Source: Pseudomonas sp. MM213 (lineage in GTDB: Bacteria > Pseudomonadota > Gammaproteobacteria > Pseudomonadales > Pseudomonadaceae). Taken from it: 64,000 nt of DNA. The stretch's first letter is position 1. Each line of letters begins with the position of its first letter. Positions 44,793 to 62,237 of this stretch are shown here, piece after piece. The translations under genes and the position numbers were made by a program. The stretch is taken from NCBI RefSeq assembly GCF_020423045.1, contig NZ_CP081943.1:4526001-4590000 (forward strand). Reading direction: 5' to 3'. Under the pieces are notes generated by a model. It did not search any database. It saw nothing but the letters and a program-made list of their open reading frames with translations, and was not told the origin of the DNA.

Positions 44793-44807
44793 TGTTATAG
44801 TATAACA
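44793..44807. promoter_or_regulatory. Zur operator (perfect palindrome)
   Basis: TGTTATA-G-TATAACA is a perfect 7-1-7 dyad identical to the core of the gamma-proteobacterial Zur consensus GTTATANTATAAC. It sits between divergent zigA (start 44742) and the secreted-protein gene (start 44887), so it can control both. Confidence 0.93.
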
Positions 44808-51776: not shown

Positions 51777-52682
51777 ATGATCCACATCACTCTGAGCGAT
51801 GGTTCATTGCGTGAATACGACCAACCGTTGTCGGTGTACGAGTTCGCCGCGAGCATTGGTCCCGGGCTTGCCAAAGCAGCCGTCGCCGGCCGGGTGGACG
51901 GCGTATTGGTGGACTGTCAGTTCTTGATCGAGGCCGATGCCCGCGTCAGCATCGTCACGCCTCAAGAACCCGATGGCCTGGAGATACTGCGCCGCTCCTG
52001 CGCATTGATGCTGGCGATGGCCGTGAAACAGCTCTATCCAAAAGCGCAATTGCAGACCGGATCGGCGCTGGGTGACGGGTTCTATTATGAGTTTGCCTTT
52101 GAACGACCGTTAAACCTGGACGACCTTGCGGGCATCGAAGCGCGCATGAAGACCCTGGCGGCGACCAATCATTCGATCCGCCGGCGCGAGCCGTCACCGC
52201 GCTCCAAGTACATGGAAAAACCTGCGACCTACCTGCTCGGGGACTTCGAATGTGTGTCGATGGGCCCGCATGCTCCGGCAACCAGAGTGTTGCAGGCATT
52301 CGCACTCGATCACATCAGCGGCCTTGCGCCACAGCGGATCTATGGCACGTGCTGGTCTTGCCAGGAGGAACTGGACGACTGGCGGGCACCGCCGCACGTG
52401 ATGGTCGTGAGCATGGATGATCGCCAAACGGATTACGCACAGTGGGTGACCGAGGCCTTGCGCCGAAGCGGCGTACGCGCCCGTGCGGACCTGCGCAACG
52501 AGAAGGTCCGCCACAAGATTCGCGAACACAGCCAGCAAGTGCCGTATCTGGTGGTGATCGGGGAGAAAGAAAAAGAAGGCGGGTTTGTCAGCGTGCGCAG
52601 TCGCACCGGGGAGGATTTTGGCCGGATGGCCATTGAGGCGGTGTGTGATTGGCTGAGATCAACGGGGATTGCGGGTGTCTGA
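51777..52682 (+). CDS. Threonyl-tRNA synthetase-like protein lacking the catalytic core
   Basis: A 301-residue ThrRS paralogue. Residues 1-62 are the TGS domain, about 63-195 the N2 editing-type domain, and about 204-301 the anticodon-binding domain (ADLRNEKVRHKIREHS, then PYLVVIGEKE). The roughly 300-residue class II catalytic core, with the structural zinc site of ThrRS, is missing: RIYGTCW is followed after about ten residues by the anticodon domain. In the editing domain the HxxxH pair is R73/L77 and the active Cys is S161; only H165 remains. So it should neither charge nor edit. Frame is clean and codon use normal, so it is likely functional in another way. Last gene of the zinc run, 22 bp after pyrQ; its RBS is not obvious. 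Confidence 0.9.
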   Translation: MIHITLSDGSLREYDQPLSVYEFAASIGPGLAKAAVAGRVDGVLVDCQFLIEADARVSIVTPQEPDGLEILRRSCALMLAMAVKQLYPKAQLQTGSALGDGFYYEFAFERPLNLDDLAGIEARMKTLAATNHSIRRREPSPRSKYMEKPATYLLGDFECVSMGPHAPATRVLQAFALDHISGLAPQRIYGTCWSCQEELDDWRAPPHVMVVSMDDRQTDYAQWVTEALRRSGVRARADLRNEKVRHKIREHSQQVPYLVVIGEKEKEGGFVSVRSRTGEDFGRMAIEAVCDWLRSTGIAGV

Positions 52683-56226: not shown

Positions 56227-58137
56227 TCAGACGTCTTCCTTCATCTTGAGCAACGGCTCCTGGAAACGCAGCAGCCGCCCGGCGTTGCCCAATACCAGCA
56301 ACGTGCTCAGGTTATGCAGCAGCGCAGCAATCATCGCCCCTGCCGCACCGAGCCAGCCGAAGGCAGCGAAAGCGACAATTGCCAGTGTCCAGCCCAGACC
56401 GATGATCACGTTGACCTGCAAGGTTTGCCGGCATTGGCGACTCAAACGTACGCAAGTGCCGAGCCGACGCAGGTCGCTGCCGATCAGCACGATGTCGGCT
56501 GAAGCCAAGGCAATATCCGCACCGCCCGCCCCCATGGCGACGCCCACCACACCGGCCTTGAGTGCCAGCGAATCATTGATGCCATCGCCGACCACCATCG
56601 GCCGGAAGCCGCTGCCGATTTCTTTCAGCACACGGTTGAGTTTGTCCTCGGGCAAGGCCTGGGCTTCGACATCGCTGATCCCGACATCCAGGGCCAACGT
56701 ATTCGCGACGCTTTGGCGATCGCCGGTGAGCAACAATTGCCGGCCCAACCCGAGTTCTCGCAATTCACTCAAGGCGAATCGCGCTTCAGGTTTGACGCTG
56801 TCCGCGAGCAACAGCCAGGCCAGGAATTCACCGTTGAGCGCCAAGCCGGCAATCGGGCCATCGTGTTCAGGAACCGCTGAAGTGGCGATTGCCAATTGCG
56901 CGAACAACTCCGGCCGCCCGAGTGCTGCTTCGCCCTGTTCGGTCATCGCTACCACGCCCAGGCCCTGACGTTCGTGAATGTCCGTGAGCAGCAGAAAATG
57001 TTCCTGGCTAACCAACCCGGCGAGCGCGCGACTGACCGGGTGACTGCTGGCGGAACCCAGGCTGGCAGCCAGTTTCAACACGTGATTGCGATCTTCCAGC
57101 GGACTGTCGATCGATTGCAGGCGCAAGGTGCCGAAGGTCAGCGTCCCGGTCTTGTCGACCACCAGCGACGTCAGATCCGCCAGCTCTTCGAGAAACGCCG
57201 AGCTGCGGATCAGAATCCCATGTCGTGCGGCAACCGCGACGCCGGCAATCGCCGTGGCCGGTGCCGACAACACCAACGCACATGGACAGGCTGCCACCAA
57301 CACCGCGAGCATCGCTTGCGCATCGTTGGTGATGAACCAGGTCACTGCGGCCAGCAACAACACCAGCACCATATAGCTACCAGCGTAGCGCTCCAGCAAA
57401 CGGGTGATTGGCGGCTTGGAACGCTCGGCGCTTTGCATCAGCGCGATGACTTTACCGAGTGTCGATTCGTTGCCGGTACGGGTCACTTCAATGCGCAGCA
57501 GGCCATCAAGGTTGATCGCCCCGCCAAACACCGTCATGCCGACGCCCGCCTCCACCGGCACCGACTCGCCCGTGATCGATGCCGTATCGAGACTCGCCTG
57601 ACCGGAGAGCACACGACCATCGGCCGGCACTCGATCACCGGCGCGGACCTCAACGCGGTCGCCAGCCTTGAGTGTGCCGTTGTCGACTTCGACGATGGTG
57701 CCATCCGCCTGAACCTTGCGCGCATGGCTGCGCGTCAGTTTGCCGAGTGCGTGAATCGCCTCCTGGGAACCGATCACGCTGCGCTCTTCCAACACATGAC
57801 CGAAGATCATGATGATCGGCAACAACGCAGCGGTCAGCAGATCGCCCGTTGCCCAGGCACCCAACATCGCCAACGCAATCAACTGATCGGTGATCCCGTG
57901 CAAGCTGGGATAACGCAGGCTGTACCAGGCCGAACGCATCACCGGCACGGCCACCAGCAACGAGGCAAAACCCAGCAGCAATTGACTGACGCCCGTCTGC
58001 TCCGGCGACCACCAGCGCCAGATCAAACCGAGCGCCAGCAAGCCGAGCGCGAGCATGGCCAGGGTCAGCTGGCGTGCAGCGCTGCGTTGTTCGGCCGAGG
58101 ACAACATGCTCGGTGCGGCGGCGGTTTGGGCGGTCAT
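56227..58137 (-). CDS. P1B-type heavy-metal ATPase
   Basis: A 636-residue metal-transporting P-type ATPase. Four N-terminal membrane helices (to about 118), actuator domain with TGES (189-192), membrane CPC metal motif (284-286), phosphorylation site DKTGT (328-332), SHP (365-367), and the GDGIND hinge. It has no N-terminal metal-binding domain. The last helix carries HN-L-ST (608-612) rather than the DxG of zinc exporters (ZntA), so the metal cannot be assigned. Last gene of the four-gene SPFH operon, with a 4-bp overlap to the gene before it. This fixed link to SPFH proteins is unusual for the family. Confidence 0.92.
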   Translation of the reverse strand: MTAQTAAAPSMLSSAEQRSAARQLTLAMLALGLLALGLIWRWWSPEQTGVSQLLLGFASLLVAVPVMRSAWYSLRYPSLHGITDQLIALAMLGAWATGDLLTAALLPIIMIFGHVLEERSVIGSQEAIHALGKLTRSHARKVQADGTIVEVDNGTLKAGDRVEVRAGDRVPADGRVLSGQASLDTASITGESVPVEAGVGMTVFGGAINLDGLLRIEVTRTGNESTLGKVIALMQSAERSKPPITRLLERYAGSYMVLVLLLAAVTWFITNDAQAMLAVLVAACPCALVLSAPATAIAGVAVAARHGILIRSSAFLEELADLTSLVVDKTGTLTFGTLRLQSIDSPLEDRNHVLKLAASLGSASSHPVSRALAGLVSQEHFLLLTDIHERQGLGVVAMTEQGEAALGRPELFAQLAIATSAVPEHDGPIAGLALNGEFLAWLLLADSVKPEARFALSELRELGLGRQLLLTGDRQSVANTLALDVGISDVEAQALPEDKLNRVLKEIGSGFRPMVVGDGINDSLALKAGVVGVAMGAGGADIALASADIVLIGSDLRRLGTCVRLSRQCRQTLQVNVIIGLGWTLAIVAFAAFGWLGAAGAMIAALLHNLSTLLVLGNAGRLLRFQEPLLKMKEDV

Positions 58138-59192
58138 TGTGCAGCTCCCTGAATGATCAGGCGGGAATCGTCTTTCGGATTGACCGTGGTCACCGAGCCG
58201 GCCTGACCGAGGATTTTCGGCAAGCGTTCGCGGTAAATGCGCAACAGCATTTGCGGGTCGGTGCCTTGTTGTTGCGCCTTGGCCAGGCTCAATACCGTGG
58301 CCGTGTCGGCGGAGGCTTTGGCCAGCCGTTCGCTGGCTTGAGCGTGGGCGACTTGCAGCGCACGGTCGGCTTGCTCGTTGGCGGCCTGGGTGAGTTTCTC
58401 GGCTTCAGTGCGGGCATTGGCCACGGCTTTATCGGCTTGCTGACTTGCCGTCAGAACGGCGTTGAAAGCATTGACCGCAGGTCCTGGCAGACTCGACTGC
58501 ACATCCACGCGCGCCACTTCGATCCCCAGCCCCTGCCCCGTTGCGGTCAATTGCGCGAGTCGTTGATTGATGCCTTGTACCAAATCCCCGCGCAGGCGTT
58601 CGCGTCTTTCCGCCGCTTGATTATCCGCGCCGATCAACTCAGGGCGCGCCACCAGAATGGTGTCCAGATCTCGTGCGGCGGTGAGTGCCACGGCGCTGCG
58701 AGTCACCAGGCGATCCAGTGCCGGTAGCACGTGTTCACCTTGAACAACGAACGCATACGGTTCGGTGACTTTGTAAAACACCCGCACATCCAATTGCACC
58801 ACACCCGCGTCACCCGTCAGCAGATAACCGGAACCTGCCAGCGCATCACTGAGCGGCGTGGCGAAAGTGGCTGCTCGGTCGGCCTGCAACGCGGCATCGC
58901 TGCGCAGTAGATTATCGACCCGACGCTCGATCACCCGATCTGCCGCCGGCAACAAAACCACCTGCTCGAACGGCCTCGGCCACGCCAACAGCAGACCGGC
59001 ATTCTGAATGCGATCCAGCGCGCCAAAGTGCAACACCACCGCGCGATTTTGCGGATCGATTTGCCGCACGTTGGAGAATGCCCACGCCAACGCGGCCAAG
59101 ACTGTCACCGCATACAGGGCGAGAAAAGCCAATCGCCCGGCCTGAATCCAGGGGCTGCTTAACTCATTTGTTCCACGTGGAACCAAACTCAT
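58134..59192 (-). CDS. SPFH/band-7 protein, HflC-like
   Basis: A 352-residue protein with one N-terminal membrane helix (about 17-40) and a band-7/SPFH domain (about 45-230; QIDPQNRAVVLHFGAL start), then an Ala/Glu-rich coiled coil (about 225-300) typical of HflC-type assemblies. It partners with the HflK-like protein encoded immediately upstream; both overlaps (with the gene before and after) are 4 bp. This is not the standard hflKC pair near hflX. Codons 4-8 (VPRGT) carry the parS site. Confidence 0.9.
   Translation of the reverse strand: MSLVPRGTNELSSPWIQAGRLAFLALYAVTVLAALAWAFSNVRQIDPQNRAVVLHFGALDRIQNAGLLLAWPRPFEQVVLLPAADRVIERRVDNLLRSDAALQADRAATFATPLSDALAGSGYLLTGDAGVVQLDVRVFYKVTEPYAFVVQGEHVLPALDRLVTRSAVALTAARDLDTILVARPELIGADNQAAERRERLRGDLVQGINQRLAQLTATGQGLGIEVARVDVQSSLPGPAVNAFNAVLTASQQADKAVANARTEAEKLTQAANEQADRALQVAHAQASERLAKASADTATVLSLAKAQQQGTDPQMLLRIYRERLPKILGQAGSVTTVNPKDDSRLIIQGAAQ
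59169..59184. other. parS site (ParB binding) at the start of the HflC-like gene
   Basis: TGTTCCACGTGGAACC equals the 16-mer reported for Pseudomonas parS sites. It lies over codons 3-8 of the HflC-like gene. Confidence 0.9.
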
Positions 59193-60229
59193 GGCTGCGA
59201 TCCGGACTTGTTATCGAGTGTCGGCGGACCGTCAACCAACACCCGGAACGGCGCGGCATCGGTGCGCAGAATCAGTTTGGTGCCAGGTGTGACGATGGTG
59301 CCCAAGGTGTCGAGGGAGCGCAGCAAGTTATACAGCTGCGGCGAACCCGCGTAAGCGCGGCCGTAAATCTGTGCGGCTTCGACCCGGGATTGAGCTTCGA
59401 TGTCGGCAGCTTTTACCGTGGCATCGGCCTGGACGATTCGCGCATCACGCTCGGCAGCAGAGCGAATTTGCGCCGCTTCACGTTTGCCGATGGCCGTGCG
59501 TTCGGTGGCGATTGTTTCACGCTCGGCGCGCATGCGATCGACGGTGGCGGTCAGGGTCACCGACGGCAAGGTCAATCGTTCGATGCCGACTTGCAGCACA
59601 CGAACGCCATAAGTGGCGAGTAACTGCTGATCGATTTGCTGACGCAACTGCGCTTCAAAATCAGCGATGTGCACCTGGCTGGCATCGGTGTTCACCAGAT
59701 TGGCCAGGTCAAAACTGCTGGCCGTGGTTTCCAGCGCCGAGCCGACGAAGGTGCGAATCTGCCGCGCCGCTTCGTCCGGCTGATTCTGCACGGCGCGCAT
59801 GAAGCGCTGCACATTGTCCGGATCGCCTTGTACCTGCCACGCCACGTAAGCCTGAACGATGATGCGCAAACCGTCGCGCGTGCCCACATCCTGCAAACCA
59901 CTGGACGTGGTGCGCAAACGCAGATCTACCGGAAGCGCCGCTTCAAAAGGCGCGGGCCAACGCCAGCCCAGCCCCGGCTCCAGCAACACCCGCGACGGAT
60001 TACCGAAGCGCGTGATCACCGTGGCTTCGCCGGAGCGCACCTGCACAAGGCTTGCAGCCGCGATGGCAAACGCCACCAGCAACGCCGCCCACCCCATGCG
60101 CCGCCACGGGAATGGACCCGCTTCCTGCGGATCGCCGTGGTGGTGATGGTGATGCCCGTGATGATGCCCGCCATGACCGTGATCGTGGCCGGCGTGGTCA
60201 TCATGATCGTGAGTGTGCGACTGGCTCAA
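59189..60229 (-). CDS. SPFH/band-7 protein, HflK-like, with His-rich N-terminus
   Basis: A 346-residue HflK-type protein. The first 31 residues contain 16 histidines (for example GHHHGHHHHHHGD), then one membrane helix (about 48-67) and a band-7 domain (about 70-260) with a C-terminal coiled coil. By topology the His cluster lies in the cytoplasm and should bind several zinc or other metal ions. Translationally coupled on both sides by 4-bp overlaps with other SPFH genes. Such a histidine tract is not part of standard HflK. Confidence 0.92.
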   Translation of the reverse strand: MSQSHTHDHDDHAGHDHGHGGHHHGHHHHHHGDPQEAGPFPWRRMGWAALLVAFAIAAASLVQVRSGEATVITRFGNPSRVLLEPGLGWRWPAPFEAALPVDLRLRTTSSGLQDVGTRDGLRIIVQAYVAWQVQGDPDNVQRFMRAVQNQPDEAARQIRTFVGSALETTASSFDLANLVNTDASQVHIADFEAQLRQQIDQQLLATYGVRVLQVGIERLTLPSVTLTATVDRMRAERETIATERTAIGKREAAQIRSAAERDARIVQADATVKAADIEAQSRVEAAQIYGRAYAGSPQLYNLLRSLDTLGTIVTPGTKLILRTDAAPFRVLVDGPPTLDNKSGSQP

Positions 60230-62184
60230 TTGGCAGCTCCTGGCTGAGCAGTTTTACGCGCCGATGCAGGGTCAACCGGCAGCGTGAAAGTACGGAGGTC
60301 GATGGTCGGCGCGTTGCCGCTGCCGCCCAGACGATGATCGAGAACCAGCAACCTGGTGTTGGTCAGGCCTTGGGAGAGCTGGCTGAAATACTGTTCCAGC
60401 ACGAAAGCCTGGCCCGCGCTGGCGTAGGCCTTTTGCTCGGCGCTGAATTTCAGATCGGCCGCTTGCGCAGCCGCATTGATTTCACGCGCGCTGGCCGTCG
60501 CTTGATCCCGTGCGATGCTGGCCTGCAATTGAGCCTGATTGGTGGCCTCTGCGGCTGCGCCGCGCTCACGCGAGATCAAGGCCTGCGCAGCAATTTGCGC
60601 CGCTTGCACACCGTGATAAGCGTTGGCCGCGCCGGCCGGTGGGTGAATCGCTTCAACCACAGTCGCGAGAATCTCCACGCCGCTGTCGAGTTTTTCCAGG
60701 TCCGCCTGCACCGCGCGTCCAATCTCTTCAGCGAGCCCTACCCTGTCCTCACCGAGCAGACCGTCGAGGGTACGAGACGCGAAGTCGTGCACCAGAATCC
60801 GGCTGGCGGTGCTGCGGATCAGTGTCGGCACGTTGGCGCTGTTGTACGTCGCGGCCAACGCCGCTTGATCCGTGAGGCCGATGCGATAGACGAAACGCAC
60901 GTCCATGTTGACGATCTGGAAGCTCTGTTTGTCGGCGCGACTGCTGGCAATCACCTGAGACTTGTCGTTCACGTGGCTGGCGTCCCACAAGCGATTGGCC
61001 GTCGTCGGCGCCGGACCTTCAGCCGGTTCAGCCACAATCGGCGCCGCCGCTTCGCCAACACTGGTGGCCAACTCGTGAACCACGCCGTTCTCGACACTCA
61101 ACACTCGACCCAGCGGCCACGGCAGACCTGCGTGCAAACCGGGGCCGAAGACCTCCACCGGTTTGCCGAAACGCTCATAGATGCCCCGCCCCTGCAGGGA
61201 AATTTCGTGAATGCCGGTGAGCGACCAACCGACCAGTGCCACCACCGCCAGTACCGGAACGAATGCCCGGCGCATGTAAGTGAAGGCCCAGATCTGTCGC
61301 AGATCGATGCCGAAGCGGTTATGTAATTCGTGTTGCAGCGCCAGCAACGGTTGGGGTGGCCAGCGCAGCATGTCGGCGACGAAGCTTCGCGCCAGCAACG
61401 CAGGTTCGAGTTGTTCACGCTGCGGACTGAACAGTGACAACACCGCGCGTAGCAGCAGTTCGACCGCAACCAGACCCGGCAGCAGGCCAATCAGTACAGC
61501 CAGACGTACCGGCCAAACCGACGCTTCGCTGCTCAACAACAGACACAGCGCGCTCAGCACAAGACAGATGATTGCCACGCGCGTCAGCTGCGCCAGCGAA
61601 CCTGCTTCGGGCCACTGGGCCACGTTTTCCTGGGCAAGTTGCCGTTCCAGCACCAGCAAACCGAAGGCCAGCAGTAACGACAAGGCCGCCGCGACACTCG
61701 CGGAAAAACCGAGCGCAGCGGGAGGCAGGGCCAGGTTCCAGACTTGATTGATGCTGAACACTACCAGCAGCGCCCAAGCGCCAAGCCACAGCGTCGAAGC
61801 GCCGATCTGCGCCAGCAGCCGCAACCATCGCTGGCTGATCCGCTCCAGTAGCCGTTCATACCAGCCCTCCGGCGGCGATTCAGCGGCGACTTCCACAGGG
61901 AGCATCGCCGGGTTCATCGCCCTTTCACGCCACCGTGTCACCCACCACGCCGATTGCAGCCCGGCGACCAGCACCAGCAAACCGGCGCTCTGATTGACCA
62001 GCACCGCAGGCCAAAGCGACTGCGGCGCAAACAGCCCGACGAAAAATGCCAGCACCCAGCCTGCCCCTGCGAGCGCGCCGAGGCCGATTGCCAACTGCCG
62101 CAATCGCCGCCCTTGAAAGACTGCCTGCTGAAAGCGCGGCAGCCCGGCTACCGTTGCGCCCTCAATCTCGAGATCGACTTGCAT
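60226..62184 (-). CDS. Polytopic membrane protein with C-terminal SPFH domain
   Basis: A 652-residue protein. The N-terminal half (about 25-330) has roughly seven hydrophobic helices: two near 30-85, two near 120-185, two near 195-250 and one near 303-325. The second half is a band-7/SPFH domain (about 330-520), then an Ala/Gln/Glu-rich coiled coil (about 520-600). Ordinary HflK has a single helix, so this is a fusion of a membrane block with HflK. ATG at 62184 is preceded by TGGAG at correct spacing; a GTG at 62211 has no RBS. A Zur-like palindrome lies 35 bp upstream. First gene of the operon. Confidence 0.88.
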   Translation of the reverse strand: MQVDLEIEGATVAGLPRFQQAVFQGRRLRQLAIGLGALAGAGWVLAFFVGLFAPQSLWPAVLVNQSAGLLVLVAGLQSAWWVTRWRERAMNPAMLPVEVAAESPPEGWYERLLERISQRWLRLLAQIGASTLWLGAWALLVVFSINQVWNLALPPAALGFSASVAAALSLLLAFGLLVLERQLAQENVAQWPEAGSLAQLTRVAIICLVLSALCLLLSSEASVWPVRLAVLIGLLPGLVAVELLLRAVLSLFSPQREQLEPALLARSFVADMLRWPPQPLLALQHELHNRFGIDLRQIWAFTYMRRAFVPVLAVVALVGWSLTGIHEISLQGRGIYERFGKPVEVFGPGLHAGLPWPLGRVLSVENGVVHELATSVGEAAAPIVAEPAEGPAPTTANRLWDASHVNDKSQVIASSRADKQSFQIVNMDVRFVYRIGLTDQAALAATYNSANVPTLIRSTASRILVHDFASRTLDGLLGEDRVGLAEEIGRAVQADLEKLDSGVEILATVVEAIHPPAGAANAYHGVQAAQIAAQALISRERGAAAEATNQAQLQASIARDQATASAREINAAAQAADLKFSAEQKAYASAGQAFVLEQYFSQLSQGLTNTRLLVLDHRLGGSGNAPTIDLRTFTLPVDPASARKTAQPGAAN

Positions 62185-62218
62185 ACCACTCCAGTGATTT
62201 TCGTTGCTCACGTCGCAA

Positions 62219-62237
62219 TTCGTTACGATATAACGAA
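62219..62237. promoter_or_regulatory. Zur-like operator of the SPFH/P1B-ATPase operon
   Basis: Minus strand TTCGTTATATCGTAACGAA contains perfect outer arms TTCGTTA…TAACGAA. Its centre matches GTTATANTATAAC at 10 of 12 fixed positions (two mismatches in one arm). It lies 35 bp before the first start codon, a promoter position. Confidence 0.65.

Follow-up and report, generated by a model that had tools for sequence, protein, structure and literature searches.

Operon layout

We analysed a 64,000-nucleotide stretch of the Pseudomonas sp. MM213 genome (assembly GCF_020423045.1, contig NZ_CP081943.1, positions 4,526,001 to 4,590,000; hereafter the window), which carries, next to a zinc-starvation gene cluster, an operon for three SPFH-family proteins (SPFH1, SPFH2 and SPFH3) and a P1B-type ATPase. 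The operon comprises four minus-strand genes at 56227–62184 (62211 with a GTG start), with a 4-bp overlap at all three junctions (Table 1). An earlier note on this DNA, made from the letters, had described this chain, a 652-residue SPFH1, a second protein with 16 His among its 31 N-terminal residues and an ATPase with no metal-binding N-domain; all of this was borne out, the length of SPFH1 being that obtained from the ATG at 62184. The labels that it gave to the second protein (HflK-like) and the third (HflC-like) were the wrong way round, as judged by comparison with the NCBIfam models (see below).

The ATG at 62184, which follows a GGAG, is the preferred start of SPFH1, and the consensus of 49 relatives, whose starts were picked by script, begins at the same position; a GTG at 62211 is possible and would give a protein of 661 residues. 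All three SPFH proteins contain a Pfam Band_7 domain (71, 113.1 and 64 bits for SPFH1, SPFH2 and SPFH3, respectively, against a gathering score of 23.6). The fourth protein matches the Pfam families E1-E2_ATPase and Hydrolase, lacks an HMA domain and scores above the heavy-metal P1B cut-off (TIGR01525, 517.7 versus 346.25 bits).

Table 1. Features of the operon in the window and of the small genes found in related loci (TM, transmembrane)
Feature	Position	Strand	Description
SPFH1	60226–62184	−	652 aa; six-helix N-terminal membrane domain, seventh helix, HflK-like SPFH domain
SPFH2	59189–60229	−	346 aa; HflC-like; one predicted TM helix; TTG start after AGGAG
His-rich N-terminal tail of SPFH2	60137–60229	−	16 His among 31 residues; cytosolic by prediction
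SPFH3	58134–59192	−	352 aa; HflK-like; one predicted TM helix
P1B-type ATPase, HmtA kind	56227–58137	−	636 aa; without HMA domain
ATPase residues			C284-P-C286, W583-T584, H608-N609-x-S-T612
Zur-type dyad	62221–62235		CGTTATATCGTAACG (minus strand); operon promoter
Small gene, g9 locus L036	5742–6194		between SPFH3 and ATPase genes
Small gene, g9 locus L037	3968–4456		between SPFH3 and ATPase genes
Small gene, g9 locus L038	5839–6366		between SPFH3 and ATPase genes
Small gene, g9 locus L040	5781–6269		between SPFH3 and ATPase genes

Conservation and distribution of the four genes

We compared the operon with related loci in a set of 104 rows, made up of the best 80 SPFH2 relatives, 18 loci from other Pseudomonadaceae, five plasmid loci and the window itself. 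The best 80 were drawn from 540 stretches encoding an SPFH2 relative, which an SPFH2-alignment scan found in one collection of genome contigs and which were ranked by their similarity to the Klebsiella SPFH2. Three pairs of rows come from duplicate genomes (L035/L108, L037/L085 and L039/L071), which leaves 101 distinct loci. The earlier note had proposed asking whether the SPFH trio and the ATPase gene co-occur across genomes, and the result is uniform: the genes are linked, in the fixed order SPFH1-SPFH2-SPFH3-ATPase, in 104/104 rows, that is in 101/101 distinct loci. Across the 102 rows without a premature stop, the four sets of pairwise protein distances correlate with one another at 0.96–0.98, values that are inflated by relatedness and by the three repeated genomes, which are still included. 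Locus L053 has premature stops in its SPFH1 and SPFH3 genes and L078 in its SPFH2 gene; these are either decaying copies or assembly errors.

The module is found in Pseudomonas, in Enterobacterales and on plasmids of Rhizobium, Burkholderia, Paraburkholderia and Klebsiella. A strong match to SPFH1 occurs in 19 of 148 Pseudomonadaceae genomes, that of MM213 among them, and six additional matches are weak (E ~1e-4 to 1e-3); the remaining 18 strong relatives carry the four genes in order without exception. In a phylum-wide sample SPFH1 is present in 11 of 398 genomes; the ATPase subfamily described below, searched for in 299, reaches E <= 1e-150 in nine, every one of which is among the 11 SPFH1 carriers. 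A tblastn search of 72,556 plasmid records with SPFH1 gave ten matches, and all five that were opened (four annotated and one unannotated, from four genera; L001–L005) contain the four genes. Two of these plasmids, L002 and L004, were typed as conjugative; insertion sequence elements flank the module on both sides in L004, and a Tn3-type transposase gene follows it in L002.

A Zur-type dyad at the operon promoter

The Zur-like dyad that the earlier note had seen at the promoter is real, although the window taken alone would not have established it. Searching from −250 to +30 of SPFH1 for GTWAY-N3-RTAAC or GTTAY-N3-RTWAC, we found the dyad in 83/104 rows (80 of the 101 distinct promoters), compared with 0.3% of shuffled sequences. 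With control spacers of 1, 2, 4 and 5 nucleotides it appeared in 0, 1, 0 and 2 of the 104 rows, and in control windows internal to the operon in 2 of 2145. A separate scan for a 15-mer palindrome with at most three mismatches recovered 50/104 rows versus 0.8% of shuffles. Four further distinct loci have the dyad further upstream, and the loci that lack it include all five plasmid loci as well as L040 and L041, two of the seven loci of the genus that we label g9. In the window itself, sites with at most four mismatches number six, against two to eight in ten shuffles, and across the whole genome a related pattern with at most one mismatch is no commoner than its reversed control (6 and 6 versus 4 and 7). 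The significance of the dyad therefore comes from its conservation across relatives, and judging it from the window or its own genome alone was abandoned. Some enterobacterial dyads, for example TGTTACAATATAACA, differ by a single base, the centre apart, from a perfect palindrome at position 44793, which lies in the zinc-starvation cluster of the window.

That cluster does lie near the operon, as had been claimed: 3.5 kb separate its end at 52682 from the operon end at 56227. When ten proteins of the cluster were compared with the fetched flanks of the remaining 100 distinct loci, 33 had a homolog. In Erwinia typographi (L056) an ABC-3 type permease gene lies directly upstream of the module, and the Paraburkholderia module has a GTP-binding protein and a zinc ABC transporter as neighbours. 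When 25 flanking genes from ten loci (of up to six listed per locus) were assigned by Pfam, a zinc-type ABC neighbour was found in E. typographi only; with this result, and homologs in 33 of 100 loci, we did not retain zinc neighbours as general evidence.

Several further observations concern the zinc neighbourhood and other dyads. The window cluster includes, at 51780–52682 on the plus strand, a gene for a threonyl-tRNA-synthetase-like protein (named by eye). Pfam assigns this protein TGS and anticodon-binding domains but no catalytic core; it may be a non-aminoacylating paralog or the product of an internal deletion. Elsewhere in the genome, two membrane proteins that resemble each other and share ‘..LLSIDALRG..’ close to the N-terminus (L148, C1:1462483, and L153, C1:1860548) each have a Zur-type dyad beside their start, exact in one case and with a mismatch in the other. 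Another exact dyad, CGTTATACAGTAACA, adjoins a TonB-receptor-like gene, also named by eye (L151, C1:5332874), a possible further Zur target. A gene for a PCu(A)C copper chaperone lies just upstream of the Paraburkholderia module (L003, 6134–6583), which hints at copper as a possible further substrate.

Signature of the ATPase

Seven residues of the ATPase (C284, C286, W583, T584, H608, N609 and T612) are invariant in 107/107 aligned rows, which represent 102 distinct loci once repeats, among them L141 of L090 and L142 of L078, are discounted. The P1B ATPases aligned with them as outgroups carry the motifs typical of CopA, ZntA and P1B-4 enzymes instead. The window ATPase has the same core as these enzymes and shares the CPC motif with the ZntA and CopA types and a His in the last helix with the P1B-4 type. 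It lacks the Lys and Asp of the last two helices of ZntA-type (P1B-2) enzymes, whose functional roles there we take as given: W-T stands in the Lys region, and H-N-x-x-T replaces D-M-G. The same H-N-x-x-T differs from the MSS/SSS of CopA (P1B-1) and from the HEGST of P1B-4 enzymes, whose pattern SPC with HEG(S/G)T is not matched by the CPC and HN-x-S/G-T found here. Among solved structures, the closest chains are 7qbz (251 bits) and ZntA 4umv (239 bits), both of which we take to be exporters.

Members linked to SPFH genes keep at least 56% identity to the window ATPase, whereas the other ATPases detected at E <= 1e-80 among 143 genomes sampled across the class, five matches from four of these genomes, reach at most 301 bits and 36% identity. 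The ATPase thus looks like a discrete subfamily with the signature CPC / GWT / HN..T. In 14 genomes or plasmid records the ATPase had a single match apiece at E <= 1e-100, and within the samples taken the subfamily was found beside SPFH genes only.

Correspondence with the hmtA cluster of Pseudomonas aeruginosa

The earlier note knew of no description of such a system. By gene order, the operon is of the hmtA type and matches PA2434–PA2439 of P. aeruginosa, a cluster that is in print together with its zinc response. In a znuA mutant, PA2434 is up 6.5-fold, PA2435 (HmtA) 5.6-fold, PA2437 14.4-fold, PA2438 10.6-fold and PA2439 9.0-fold, and the cluster has a weak predicted Zur site (E 0.11) (Pederick et al. 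2015, PMC4542158). In an electrophoretic mobility shift assay Zur gave a complete shift of the PA2439 promoter only when zinc was present (Ducret et al. 2021, PMC8531726), and the PA2435 and PA2437–PA2439 proteins are higher on zinc depletion (2025 preprint, PMC11761036). Together with the conserved dyad, the published Zur binding supports the Zur control that the earlier note had proposed, and its suggestion of a metal role for the operon is likewise supported.

As in the hmtA cluster, a P1B ATPase without an HMA domain stands behind three Hfl-type genes, and a Zur site, here the conserved dyad, lies at the first of them; Zur binding and induction by zinc depletion were shown for P. aeruginosa. 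The window operon differs in that its SPFH3 and ATPase genes have no small gene between them; it also carries its His tail on SPFH2 only and lies near a folE2/COG0523 zinc cluster. The g9 loci bear on the first difference. All seven contain SPFH1–3 and the ATPase, five have a gap of ~600 nucleotides between the SPFH3 and ATPase genes, and each of the four gaps inspected holds a gene for a protein of 150–175 residues where PA2436 would lie (Table 1). This protein has a signal-peptide-like start, and the L036 copy matched no Pfam family. In L040 a DUF4946 protein follows the ATPase, giving six slots as in PA2439–PA2434.

HmtA is described as an importer of copper and zinc, while most P1B ATPases are exporters (review, PMC8456098); the available text of this review does not mention Hfl, SPFH or stomatin, and that of Haas et al. 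2009 (PMC2770081) does not mention HflC, HflK or SPFH. Literature searches found no paper on hmtA with hflC (2022–2024) or on SPFH with P-type ATPase and zinc import (2022–2026), subscription journals and other years lying outside both searches, so that a description may exist elsewhere. New here are the fixed four-gene order, the ATPase subfamily beside SPFH genes, the conservation of the dyad and the pattern of His tails.

The SPFH proteins and their His-rich tails

SPFH2 is nearer to HflC (92.8 versus 28.7 bits for HflK) and SPFH3 nearer to HflK (87.9 versus 15.7 bits for HflC), both with a single predicted TM helix, as in the HflK/HflC–FtsH cage of Escherichia coli. All three nevertheless fall below the equivalog cut-offs: SPFH2 that for HflC (TIGR01932, 134.4 bits), and SPFH3 and SPFH1 (57.5 bits) that for HflK (TIGR01933, 159.4 bits). 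The operon differs from that cage further in having three subunits rather than two, in the six extra helices of SPFH1 and in its linked partner, an ion pump. Canonical HflC, above the curated cut-off, is present besides the operon in 21/21 genomes, and the MM213 genome has a second adjacent pair of Band_7 genes (C1:5250563–5252073), taken as the canonical hflK/hflC. Structure models resemble SPFH cage proteins in structure searches, that of SPFH2 having an SPFH core with long helices. Binding of an SPFH protein to a membrane transporter has a precedent in the stomatin–aquaporin 1 complex (PDB 9zd2, from its title), which differs in that the protein is human and the partner a channel.

The modelled fold of the N-terminal domain of SPFH1 suggests a likeness to zinc transporters of the CDF family (CDF/ZnT, YiiP; Foldseek E 0.022, rank 21). 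The sequence does not follow the model: Pfam Cation_efflux is absent from all 49 SPFH1 members examined, and helices 2 and 5, which bear the site-A ligands in CDF proteins, contain no conserved H, D or E. A profile comparison gave P 0.015 for CDF, but the P1B control did better (P 0.0038), so the sequence lends CDF homology no support.

His-rich tails, defined as at least six His on SPFH2 and at least three on the ATPase (cut-offs chosen after looking), are present on SPFH2 in 86 of the 101 distinct loci, on the ATPase in 36, on both in 21 and on neither in none (89, 38, 23 and 0 of the 104 rows). The 15 loci in which SPFH2 has no tail carry one on the ATPase; 14 are of one enterobacterial type and the last is from Sodalis (L061). 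This pattern is suggestive of tail swapping between the two proteins; as a statistical test it was dropped, since there are too few independent changes. Both tails precede the first TM helix. The SPFH2 tail is predicted to be cytosolic because arginines adjoin the helix and because of the topology that we assume for HflC.

A proposed cage around a probable metal-importing ATPase

Taken together, the comparisons favour a reading, to which we give a probability of roughly 55%, in which the three SPFH proteins of the hmtA-type operon form a dedicated cage around a zinc-importing P1B ATPase, with the His tail as acceptor. When zinc is scarce, Zur would leave the promoter, and the ATPase and the three SPFH proteins would be made. 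The ATPase would carry zinc, and possibly also copper, from the periplasm to the cytosol. SPFH2 and SPFH3, both with a single TM helix at the N-terminus and with their SPFH/coiled-coil part in the periplasm, would be joined by SPFH1, with its multi-helix membrane domain and SPFH part, in an inner-membrane cage or ring that surrounds the ATPase in the way that HflK/C surrounds FtsH. The cytosolic His tail, whether on SPFH2 or on the ATPase N-terminus, may then take up or buffer the ion leaving the pump. Zur control points to uptake, and the literature assigns import to HmtA, from which the direction of the window ATPase is taken. The SPFH genes are tied to the ATPase gene in every fetched locus, and canonical HflC is encoded separately; the simplest way to read this is as a cage of SPFH proteins around the pump. 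The earlier note had already suggested a cage around the ATPase and a metal-buffering His tract; the comparative evidence favours both, and we infer them on that footing.

Several points weigh against this reading. Gene order is what ties the window ATPase to PA2435, and contact of the SPFH proteins with the ATPase is proposed from comparison. The 80 named loci are the nearest to the Klebsiella SPFH2 and no random draw, so the set is biased, and 17 of the 101 distinct loci have no dyad up to 700 nucleotides upstream. If the cut-off for the ATPase tail is raised to four His, L050 and L056 have neither tail, and tail changes on the SPFH3 tree, which still includes the three repeated genomes, are few (at least two for SPFH2 and five for the ATPase). 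In P. aeruginosa, hmtA mRNA is low and not repressed by added zinc, and the authors suggest copper (Ducret et al. 2021, PMC8531726). Finally, the table of the 2025 preprint (PMC11761036) has p < 0.05 for PA2438 only (0.011), although its text also calls PA2439 significant.

Three other explanations were weighed. The SPFH proteins might be a second set of FtsH modulators, made under zinc starvation to tune FtsH, itself a zinc protease, with the ATPase merely sharing the promoter. The PA2437–PA2439 proteins have been read in this way by annotation, as FtsH modulators in one paper (PMC9431628) and as HflB interactors in the 2025 preprint (PMC11761036), and the SPFH proteins do resemble HflK and HflC. 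A second modulator set would, however, stand beside the canonical HflC of all 21 genomes, would be built from proteins that all score below the HflC and HflK cut-offs, and would leave the constant company of the ATPase, the joint travel on plasmids and the appearance of an ATPase tail wherever SPFH2 lacks one to be accounted for; we consider it unlikely.

More doubtful still is that the ATPase exports, either to remove a wrong metal admitted by derepressed zinc importers or to load periplasmic enzymes with zinc inside the cage. The nearest solved chains and the habit of most P1B ATPases (PMC8456098) would suit export. A zinc exporter repressed by zinc-loaded Zur would, however, be an oddity, the published role of HmtA is that of an importer (PMC4542158, PMC8456098), and the ZntA-type Lys and Asp are absent, with invariant W-T and H-N in the last helices instead. 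We give as little weight to copper as the main substrate: HmtA is reported to take both metals (PMC8456098), mainly copper was suggested for it (PMC8531726) and the PCu(A)C gene lies near the Paraburkholderia module, but the conserved Zur-type dyad, the published Zur binding, the induction by zinc depletion and the zinc-type genes that lie near the module in the window, in Erwinia and in Paraburkholderia all point to zinc.

The dedicated cage around a zinc-importing ATPase can be extended to a wider and distinctly more tentative reading: a three-subunit cage with the ATPase as obligate client, in which SPFH1 contributes a CDF-like fold without metal ligands and the His tail is again the acceptor. 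Such a cage might stand beside the HflK/C–FtsH and QmcA–YbbJ kinds and select the ions that reach the pump from the periplasm. Import by HmtA runs contrary to the habit of its family, and the literature cited, in the parts available, offers no mechanism for it; if the wider reading is true, control of ions by the cage would explain how a P1B ATPase works as an importer. If the cage itself is true, there would be a testable answer both to the puzzle of import direction and to the question of what the zinc-induced ‘HflK/HflC’ proteins do, and SPFH cages would gain a new class of client, ion pumps, in a module that is widespread and also plasmid-borne.

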